Positions 27,843 through 29,894 of a stretch of DNA of 32,967 bases are shown one piece after another. How positions within the stretch are numbered: position 1 is the first letter of the stretch; each line of letters begins with the position of its first letter. This DNA comes from an uncultured Bacilli bacterium (GTDB taxonomy: Bacteria > Bacillota_I > Bacilli_A > RF39 > UBA660). The notes below the pieces were generated by a model, which did not search any database, was not told the DNA's origin, and saw only the letters and a list, made by a program, of their open reading frames with translations. A program made the translations under genes and the position numbers. Where the stretch lies: assembly GCA_944372025.1 (NCBI GenBank), contig CALVYE010000006.1, positions 1 through 32,967 on the forward strand. Direction: 5' to 3'.

Positions 27843-27852
27843 TAAAAGCAAG

Positions 27853-27880
27853 AAAAATCCGAAAATCGGATTTTTTTCTT
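27853..27880 (+). terminator. Rho-independent terminator after tuf
   Basis: A 10-bp stem (27853-27862 with 27866-27875), AAA loop and a T-rich tail. Confidence 0.9.
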
Positions 27881-27886
27881 TTTGGC

Positions 27887-27915
27887 TTGAAAACAATAAT
27901 CATTCATGGTATTAT
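27887..27915 (+). promoter_or_regulatory. promoter of the TasA-like gene
   Basis: TTGAAA (27887-27892), 17 nt, TATTAT (27910-27915), with TGG before the -10. Start point near 27922. Confidence 0.7.
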
Positions 27916-27942
27916 TAGAATGATATAAGGAGGATAAGCCTT

Positions 27943-28548
27943 ATGAATAAAGAAAAAAATAAAAAATATTTAATAACTGCTATAGGAGTAATTACCCTTA
28001 TAATAGCAACAATAGGTGCAACGTTTGCATATTTTTCATCAACTTCAAGCACAAAAGAAGAAAGTATTAAAACAGGCTCTTTAAAATTAGATGCAACATC
28101 TAGTGAACTAACTTCAGCAAACATTAAACCAACTACATGGAACGATGTTATGGCTAGTAACGTTGCAAATGAAGATATCGCCCAACTAAAACTTTCAGTA
28201 GATACATACGGTACTACTATTGAAGATGCAAAATATAATATATATCTAACTACTACAGGTATCGCACATAATAGTAACAACAGATTAGAGGGCGGAATAT
28301 TAAAGGATATCAAATGGAAATTAGTAAATTCTAATAATGAAGTTATTAATACAGGAGACTTTTCTAAAGTAGATTATTCAAAGCCTATAAAATTGACGAA
28401 AAGTCCTATAACAATTGAAAAAAAAGATACAAAAGAAGAAGCTACACAAACATTTTTATTATTTATATATATAGATAATAAAGGACAAGAAAATCAATTA
28501 CAAGATTTAATTATAAATGGAACTTTAAGTGCAAAAGCAGTTCAATAA
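27943..28548 (+). CDS. TasA/CalY-like secreted matrix protein with SipW-type signal peptide
   Basis: The 201-residue protein has a basic start, a hydrophobic segment (9-27) and the SipW-specific cleavage region GATFAYFSS (25-33), like the WAAF/AYFS region of TasA and camelysin. Just after it, KTGSLKLDATS (about 45-55) matches the first strand of the mature TasA fold (SGTLDLSA). The rest is a beta-rich domain ending in FLLFIYIDNKGQENQLQDLI and an alternating last strand. TasA-family proteins form extracellular matrix fibres by donation of the N-terminal strand. A SipW homologue is encoded 700 bases downstream. AGGAGG before the ATG. It has its own promoter and terminator, so it may be made in larger amounts than its partners. 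Sequence identity to TasA looks low; the call rests on signal, fold pattern and neighbours. Confidence 0.75.
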   Translation: MNKEKNKKYLITAIGVITLIIATIGATFAYFSSTSSTKEESIKTGSLKLDATSSELTSANIKPTTWNDVMASNVANEDIAQLKLSVDTYGTTIEDAKYNIYLTTTGIAHNSNNRLEGGILKDIKWKLVNSNNEVINTGDFSKVDYSKPIKLTKSPITIEKKDTKEEATQTFLLFIYIDNKGQENQLQDLIINGTLSAKAVQ

Positions 28549-28555
28549 AAAAATA

Positions 28556-28589
28556 AAAAACTTGCATTGAATAATGTAAGTTTTTATTA
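28556..28589 (+). terminator. terminator after the TasA-like gene, containing the next -35
   Basis: A 13-bp stem (28556-28568 with 28573-28585, one G-T wobble) with a GAAT loop and T-rich tail. Confidence 0.75.
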
Positions 28590-28595
28590 TATAAT
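28567..28595 (+). promoter_or_regulatory. promoter of the anchor-sipW pair, nested in the terminator
   Basis: TTGAAT (28567-28572) lies across the loop of the terminator hairpin; after 17 nt comes a perfect TATAAT (28590-28595). The two functions share bases. Confidence 0.6.
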
Positions 28596-28621
28596 ATATA
28601 TATCATAGGTAGGTGCTTATT

Positions 28622-29233
28622 ATGAATAATGAAGATATCATTAAAAACGAAGAAGAAGAGCAAGAAAATAAAAAAAGACCAATACTACTTTTATTGTTAT
28701 ATATTTTTAGCTTGATAATGTTTATTTTATCAGGTACTTTTACCTTGTCCACAATATTAAAAACGAGAGATATAAATATTAGAAACGTAAAAATGGGACA
28801 AGTTAAAATGGAATTAATAAACAATAAAGAAACAAATATTAAACTTATCGATACTTATCCGATGAACGAAAGTGAAGCTGCAACATTAAAACCTTTTGAA
28901 TTTAAAGTAACTAACGAAGGCACATTACCTGTTATTTATCGTCTTGTATTACAAGATGTAAAAGATAAAGAAGTTTTAGATGAATTAGGAGGTACCAAAC
29001 TAGATAAGTCTAAAGTAAATTATTCTTTAATTGATAGTGAAACTGAAAAAGTTGTATCAACAGGACTAATAAGTAACTTAAAAAATGGTATACTATTAAC
29101 AGAAAAAATATTACCTAGATATTCGAAATCTTTTGAATTTAGATTATGGATAAATGAAAATGCTGGAGATGAATCTCAAAATAAATATTATGTAGGGGAA
29201 ATAGTTTTGGAAATTGATGAAATACTAGAATAA
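28622..29233 (+). CDS. membrane-anchored TasA-fold-like protein, possible TapA-type partner
   Basis: The 203-residue protein has an acidic cytoplasmic N-terminus (1-16), KKRP, one hydrophobic segment (about 21-45) and an extracellular domain of about 155 residues. FEFKVTNEGTLPVIYRLVL and SFEFRLWINENAGDESQNKYYVGEIVLEI resemble the strands of the TasA/camelysin beta-sandwich. The region after the hydrophobic segment reads SGTFTLSTI and lacks the aromatic AYF site, so it may stay uncleaved in the membrane. Its place between the TasA-like and sipW genes suggests an anchor or assembly partner, as TapA is for TasA; direct homology to TapA is not claimed. The ATG at 28622 (AGGTAGGTG upstream) is preferred to a GTG at 28613 inside that site. 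Confidence 0.6.
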   Translation: MNNEDIIKNEEEEQENKKRPILLLLLYIFSLIMFILSGTFTLSTILKTRDINIRNVKMGQVKMELINNKETNIKLIDTYPMNESEAATLKPFEFKVTNEGTLPVIYRLVLQDVKDKEVLDELGGTKLDKSKVNYSLIDSETEKVVSTGLISNLKNGILLTEKILPRYSKSFEFRLWINENAGDESQNKYYVGEIVLEIDEILE

Positions 29234-29246
29234 GGAAGGTACCAAA

Positions 29247-29837
29247 ATGGATACATTAAAGAAAATATGGAAATATATTTCAACAATTTTATCATATTCT
29301 GCATTAGTTATATTGATAATAATTGGTATTATATTCACCTTATATGTTGTAGATGTTAAAGTTCAAGAATCAAAAGGCGGAACTGCTAAACCACTATTTG
29401 GAGCTTATGTAATTATTAGTGGTAGTATGGAGCCAAACATTCATGTATATGATGTTATAATATCTAAAAGAGTGGATCCTTCAACTTTAGAAGTAGGAGA
29501 TGTTATAACTTTCCATTCAAATGACACAAGATTTTATGGTGAAACTGTAACCCATAGAATTGTAGAAGTAATTGATTCAAAAAAAGGTATATATAGAACA
29601 AAAGGTGATGCTAACAATGTTGAAGATGAAGCTTTAACCGTTGGAGAGAATATAATGGGAAAAGTTGTAATGAGAATTCCTCAATTAGGTAGAGTACAAA
29701 GTTTTATCGCAACAAAAGGTGGTTGGTTCATAGTTATCCTTATTCCATGTTTATGTGTTATTTCTTACGATATTGTAAAAATTATGAAATTAGTTGGTAA
29801 AAAGGGGAAACAAAAATTAGAAAATAAAAAAGAATAA
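29247..29837 (+). CDS. sipW: SipW-type signal peptidase I
   Basis: ER-type signal peptidase of the plasma membrane. The 196-residue protein has a membrane segment at about 13-35, the catalytic Ser60 in SGSMEP, His103 in VTHRIVEV in place of the Lys of ordinary bacterial enzymes, Asp121 in TKGDAN, and a second membrane segment at about 157-180. The Ser-His form is the hallmark of SipW, which processes TasA-family precursors. The ATG is 13 bases after the anchor-like gene with GGAAGG as ribosome-binding site, so both are co-transcribed. No general-type signal peptidase is seen in this window. Confidence 0.9.
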   Translation: MDTLKKIWKYISTILSYSALVILIIIGIIFTLYVVDVKVQESKGGTAKPLFGAYVIISGSMEPNIHVYDVIISKRVDPSTLEVGDVITFHSNDTRFYGETVTHRIVEVIDSKKGIYRTKGDANNVEDEALTVGENIMGKVVMRIPQLGRVQSFIATKGGWFIVILIPCLCVISYDIVKIMKLVGKKGKQKLENKKE

Positions 29838-29860
29838 TTTAAAATTTAATAGTAAATATT

Positions 29861-29894
29861 AAAAGTGGTTCATATTTTATGAGCCACTTTTAAA
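29861..29894. terminator. bidirectional terminator between sipW and femX
   Basis: A 14-bp stem (29861-29874 with 29878-29891, one T-G wobble) and TTT loop. The A run on the left and T run on the right give T tracts for both converging transcripts. Confidence 0.9.

Follow-up and report, generated by a model that had tools for sequence, protein, structure and literature searches.

A conserved gene cluster pointing to a probable SipW-dependent TasA-type surface assembly with an anchored paralogue in uncultured gut Bacilli

Three genes lie between tuf and the convergent gene femX in the DNA of an uncultured Bacilli bacterium, and the question they raise is whether they build a fibre on the cell surface, and whether they do so on their own. 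An earlier note had read them as a minimal extracellular fibre system made of a secreted protein, a membrane-anchored protein and a signal peptidase. We analysed the locus within the window, that is, the whole stretch of 32,967 nucleotides, and compared it with the rest of its assembly and with genomes of the same family. All three genes are present in the order tuf, gene 1, gene 2, gene 3, and their coordinates proved right. They are a real, conserved unit that encodes a surface-fibre subunit of the TasA type, a relative of this subunit that stays in the membrane, and a trimming enzyme. The reading that we consider probable is that of the core of a SipW-dependent TasA-type surface assembly with an anchored paralogue, in this uncultured gut Bacilli family. 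The features of the locus are as follows.

27851-27877, + strand: terminator hairpin of tuf (terminator scan, 12-pair stem), which sets the module apart from the str operon.
27887-27915, + strand: promoter-like site of gene 1, TTGAAA-17-TATTAT with TG before the -10 hexamer, 10/12 match to the consensus, just upstream of the gene 1 RBS.
27943-28548, + strand: gene 1 (P0001), secreted TasA/camelysin-type subunit with a SipW-type signal, predicted cleavage GATFA↓YFSS.
28556-28585, + strand: hairpin and T-run between genes 1 and 2 (gene 1 terminator), which folds in the syntenic genomes.
28567-28595, + strand: promoter-like site for gene 2-sipW, TTGAAT-17-TATAAT, overlapping the hairpin.
28622-29233, + strand: gene 2 (P0002), divergent TasA-type paralogue with one TM segment and without the SipW cleavage motif, predicted membrane-anchored subunit.
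29247-29837, + strand: gene 3 (P0003), SipW-like ER-type signal peptidase with S60/H103/D121.
29859-29893, no strand assigned: terminator hairpin 3' of sipW (16-pair stem), between the convergent sipW and femX.

Our search of related genomes showed that the cluster is kept together, so that the outcome named earlier as refuting the reading, a cluster scattered in relatives, did not occur. The order tuf > 1 > 2 > sipW < femX > murD is common to four further genomes. In three of these (G023, L120; G044, L117; SIG205, L118) it is intact as far as eno, and in the fourth (G145, L116) the same order runs from inside tuf onwards, where the contig has its edge. In the family as a whole, sipW is present in 124 of 145 genomes. 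Across 22 in-family loci, 38 of 102 ORFs within 2.5 kb of sipW were TasA-like, versus 4 of 110 farther off (Fisher P 2e-10, a nominal value, the loci being related), and the order and number of the partners of sipW vary from locus to locus. The organism had been described as a reduced-genome relative of the Mollicutes; since it keeps the cell-wall genes femX and murD next to the module, it is not Mollicute-like in physiology.

The product of gene 3 (196 aa) had been proposed to be a Ser-His SipW peptidase, and the comparison bears this out. None of the residues S60, H103 and D121 varies across four genomes, and the protein scores 101.1 bits against TIGR02228 (ER-type signal peptidase I), well over the cut-off of 51.85. 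Against the SipW equivalog NF046067 it reaches 102.1 bits, below the cut-off of 190, and in the PDB its sequence matches only SEC11, a subunit of the signal peptidase complex of eukaryotes. Judged by its sequence, gene 3 encodes an ER-type Ser-His signal peptidase, a true SipW-like enzyme. No bacterial-type LepB was found above cut-off in the organism's own assembly (G000). Nevertheless, we rejected the idea that SipW is the only signal peptidase I of these cells, because LepB is general in the family (133 of 145 genomes, the sister G023 included); a gap in the assembly most likely accounts for the missing gene here. It follows from this distribution that SipW is an extra, dedicated second peptidase. 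In TasA, a substrate of SipW, the aromatic residue at P2' hinders cleavage by LepB (PMC10269814).

The proposal of a self-contained three-gene system proved too narrow. The assembly holds about ten other proteins with a SipW-type signal and a TasA-like domain, dispersed over other contigs, and a single sipW, the sole ER-type peptidase found there; SipW would therefore serve the whole TasA-domain repertoire. Two of these proteins are stand-alone subunits (L079, 191 aa; L080, 182 aa). Most are larger and modular, several of them 470-720 aa long, with the TasA-like domain joined to C-terminal heads of two types that gave no match to named domains. N-domains related to gene 2 occur on three other contigs of the same genome, and up to 23 gene-2-like places were counted in a relative of 1.2 Mb. 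In two of the modular proteins (L087 107-1648 and L236 3513-5681) the TasA-like domain is separated from the head by a Dockerin type I motif.

Heads of type 1 end in about 40 hypervariable codons in which the third position is a pyrimidine in 77-86% of cases, versus 23-63% upstream, and in which the first and second codon positions show more differences. Two copies, on contigs C15 and C27, are told apart by 25 positions of the stretch that was compared; at 20 of these, one copy has A. Both copies carry the same perfect hairpin 3' of the variable stretch, with the loop alone changed. These features mark the type 1 head ends as putative variable regions of diversity-generating retroelements (DGRs). 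Seven genes with ends of this type were found in the genome, on contigs C1, C15, C22, C27, C58, C59 and C60 (L216-L223, L234). Furthermore, in two complete genes (L081, L236) the TasA-like N-domain has Phe at P2' and the protein ends in a DGR-type variable region. The assembly (93.7% complete, 98 contigs) gave no RVT_1 match for a DGR reverse transcriptase (RT), and pattern searches for a template returned only VR-type copies inside genes.

Complete DGRs were recovered from relatives, with RT, bAvd (above cut-off in two cassettes) and TR/VR pairs. A blastn-based search for such pairs gave nothing, and it was a scan tolerating changes at template A that found them. Mismatches fell at template A in 12/12 cases in G014, 9/9 in G009, 10/10 in G001 and 22/25 in G012; a match in G011 (11/15) resembles an A-rich coding repeat of the ordinary sort and was rejected as a pair. 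In G012 the template lies beside the RT (L199 483-583 in reverse-strand coordinates), and its match is in trans: it pairs with the variable end of L213 3691-5259, a gene on another contig whose product is a TasA-domain protein with a SipW-type signal. We found no paper in the literature linking SipW-dependent TasA domains with DGRs. The cassettes L196 (G004), L200 (G009) and L202 (G001) have a gene for a surface protein with a variable C-terminus adjoining bAvd and an RT of 337-409 aa; TR/VR pairs were found within L200 and L202, and none in L196. A separate observation concerns G145, in which L206 2441-4105 encodes a 554-aa reverse transcriptase whose C-terminus (GMSGGPVLNS...) resembles serine proteases of the trypsin type; it may be a defence protein in which an RT and a protease are fused.

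This repertoire would suit a wider role in surface display, in which TasA-type domains would be mainly a general secretion and attachment module for heads (possibly lectin-like, and often DGR-diversified). Genes 1 and 2 would then be the headless shaft and base to which headed paralogues are added, in the manner of the pilin domain of a tip adhesin. The dispersed SipW-signal proteins, the many gene-2-like places of the 1.2-Mb relative, the fusions in L081 and L236 and the template match of G012 all agree with such a role. On the other hand, headed and headless proteins are encoded at different loci, the headed ones could sit alone on the surface, and the heads resemble no named domain. We regard this explanation as possible without being probable. 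The confidences of our readings overlap, as display includes the SipW-dependent assembly itself. A fuller version, with gene 1 as shaft, gene 2 as membrane base and the headed TasA-domain proteins as exchangeable, hypermutated adhesins, strikes us as rather unlikely. If it were true, the display fibre would be a Gram-positive analogue of the adhesive chaperone-usher pili, with programmable tips.

The product of gene 1 has 201 aa and begins with an N-terminal TM segment, IIATIGATFAYFSS, bearing the SipW motif. The signal reads TIGATFA↓YFSS, and A↓YF, with F at P2', is invariant among the orthologues. Against TIGR04088 the protein scores 18.7 bits when taken singly (cut-off 19) and 21.5 bits, above cut-off, in the genome scan. 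This upholds its designation as a secreted protein with a SipW-type signal (GATFAYFSS). The protein falls short of the PF12389 gathering cut-off of 22.5 bits (17.1 bits), which the orthologue in G023 (L120) almost reaches (22.4 bits) and the same-genome paralogue L080 passes (30.6 bits). Moreover, alignment of the gene 1 family profile with four PF12389-positive Bacillaceae proteins extended over 176 columns (hhalign probability 98.1, E 1.3e-13). Because of these scores and of this full-length profile alignment, homology is well supported, and gene 1 can be taken for a remote, full-length homologue of camelysin/TasA despite a single-protein score below the curated threshold.

Structure prediction, proposed earlier as the way to recognize TasA-like folds, gave a partial answer. 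AlphaFold2 models built on shallow alignments (gene 1, pLDDT 77, pTM 0.67; gene 2, pLDDT 87) both open with a long helix, after which comes a beta domain. In Foldseek searches of the PDB, the best sensible match of gene 1 was a thread filament of Sulfolobus (7pnb; prob 0.99, E 2e-3), and Pap/Fim pilin domains ranked lower. Gene 2 matched a bundling pilus of Pyrobaculum (7ueg; E 5.5e-4, prob 1.0), with a cannula subunit, the type 1 pilus and chlamydial Pgp3 as further matches. Donor-strand pili were thus matched weakly for both proteins, at TM-scores of about 0.3, and TasA itself was not among the best 50 matches listed; nor did sequence searches of the PDB with the gene 1 and gene 2 profiles return it. 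The models weakly suggest a donor-strand-pilin-like beta sandwich for both products. According to the literature, the archaeal bundling pilus and TasA are related in structure, and donor strands drive the assembly of each (PMC9674648).

These modest fold matches, together with the position of gene 1 alone below the PF12389 cut-off, would also suit a non-polymerising, camelysin-type surface protein, in which case the cluster would be a secretion cassette and not a fibre system. Camelysin is also annotated as a protease, and some camelysins are described as surface proteases. However, the camelysins CalY and TasA of Bacillus cereus are filament subunits (PMC13082335), and the conserved pairing of gene 1 with an anchored paralogue and a dedicated peptidase fits assembly. 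We therefore find a non-polymerising gene 1 doubtful, and retain the TasA-type surface assembly as our reading.

The paralogue in question, gene 2, starts at ATG 28622 and encodes 203 aa, with a single TM segment followed by SGTFTLST. It is homologous to gene 1 (hhalign 94.2%, E 1.1e-7, 146 columns), and no similarity of its profile to classic TasA was detected. The stretch aligned to the gene 1 cleavage site, SGTFT-LST, lacks both A-x-A and the aromatic P2', and in 5/5 orthologues P1 is Thr instead of Ala and no aromatic residue stands at P2'. The earlier description of a membrane-anchored, TasA-like protein devoid of a cleavage site therefore stands. We also considered gene 2 as a TapA and rejected this, as it matches neither TIGR04087 nor any other NCBIfam model. 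Two orthologues (L117, L118) have at their start a Zn ribbon of the form CxxC...CPxC (PF00301, above cut-off at 23.9 bits in L117; TIGR04104, weak in L117 and L118), and their N-terminus is therefore expected to stay cytosolic. This rubredoxin/Zn-ribbon ahead of the TM segment (L117 6295-6984, L118 6200-6886) is in itself an unusual metal-binding knuckle fused to a surface subunit. That SipW cuts gene 2 at a non-canonical site, making it an ordinary second secreted subunit and a TapA-like minor component, is improbable: the TapA signal is likewise divergent (17.9 bits to TIGR04088 for the TapA of L148) and gene 2 holds TapA's place beside sipW, but Thr at P1 is invariant and the aromatic P2' is lost, and the Zn-ribbon N-termini of two orthologues fit a retained cytosolic end. 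Most likely, gene 2 escapes cleavage and remains as a subunit anchored in the membrane; the simplest reading of its sequence is a type II protein that is retained there.

Between genes 1 and 2, a 35-bp core (28561-28595, CTTGCATTGAAYAATGYAAGTTTTTATTATATAAT) is almost unchanged across five genomes, which represent at least two genera and in which the gene 2 orthologues are 41-59% identical to that of the window at the protein level. Both promoter hexamers of gene 2-sipW are kept in the five genomes, save for TTGAAT/TTGAAC. The element occurs once per genome and is confined to genomes with the cluster, and we hence rejected the view that the hairpin is a dispersed repeat; a search of known RNA families gave no match to it. 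As it contains TTGAAY-17-TATAAT, the block reads as a putative gene 1 terminator overlapping the gene 2-sipW promoter. The suggestion that the fibre gene has its own promoter and terminator gains support for the near-invariant terminator. For the promoter it is weak: matches to the gene 1 type are no commoner than in shuffles (15 found versus 15.9 expected), so that this site counts by its position only. Such an arrangement would be in keeping with a plentiful subunit regulated apart from an anchor and a peptidase that are needed in small amounts. In B. subtilis, TasA far exceeds both TapA and SipW in abundance (PMC10151520).

These results can be joined in a model. Its computed support consists of the homology of the subunits, the motif loss in gene 2, the conservation of both cluster and intergenic element, and the presence of one sipW for many substrates; cleavage by this SipW, polymerisation, the anchor role, the expression ratios and co-assembly with the modular proteins are its inferred steps. 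SipW would cut gene 1 behind GATFA, so that the mature protein would start at a free YFSS.... The mature N-terminus of TasA is a donor strand, and the freed strand of gene 1 would complement the next subunit, so that gene 1 would polymerise or coat the surface. Gene 2, its SipW site being lost, would retain its TM segment and act as a membrane-held base or nucleator linking the assembly to the cell, which is the role of TapA in B. subtilis. The terminator overlapping the second promoter would keep the gene 1 transcript separate from that of gene 2-sipW and allow their levels to be set independently. The same SipW would process the scattered TasA-domain proteins, many of which bear C-terminal heads, and these headed paralogues may be incorporated into the assemblies or stand alone on the surface. 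In short, SipW-processed TasA-type subunits would form anchored surface assemblies, and these may display variable heads.

Among known systems, the parallel that had been drawn with the tapA-sipW-tasA operon of B. subtilis (PMC9674648, PMC10151520) holds for the parts: both have an ER-type SipW, a TasA/camelysin-type subunit with a SipW signal and a minor accessory protein beside sipW. Here, however, the accessory protein is a TasA-type paralogue without a cleavage site and not TapA, the order is 1-2-sipW, the subunit has its own putative transcription unit and there are many further dispersed substrates. This order is not peculiar, since in the Bacillaceae a Robertmurraya cluster (L148, L156) has the same one: camelysin (PF12389, 250 bits) > TapA (141 bits) > sipW (228 bits). 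Its accessory protein is nonetheless a true TapA, and its peptidase passes the SipW equivalog cut-off, which that of the window does not. The sipW-tasA/calY locus of Bacillus cereus is, like the window, without TapA, and its two camelysin-type subunits make heterofilaments with the assembly factor CapP (PMC13082335); both of its camelysins are secreted, though, and CapP, with its DUF4047 domain, is no paralogue of TasA. With the present locus, the SipW/TasA kind of matrix fibre would extend to small-genome, wall-bearing uncultured gut Bacilli, in a variant where TapA is replaced as accessory protein by a paralogue of the subunit that stays tethered.

Further afield, the archaeal bundling pili of Pyrobaculum (7ueg) and the thread filaments (7pnb) are donor-strand fibres and the best sensible folds for genes 2 and 1, respectively, but at the low TM-scores given above, and no sequence similarity to them was found. 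Lastly, the DGRs of the relatives resemble those described with bAvd (PMC8144416) in having an RT, Avd and TR/VR pairs with mutations at template A; they differ from them in that the N-domain of the target is a SipW/TasA module and in that the DGR lies outside the three-gene locus. This link between SipW-dependent TasA domains and DGRs makes testable what DGRs diversify in gut cells and how the products are displayed.
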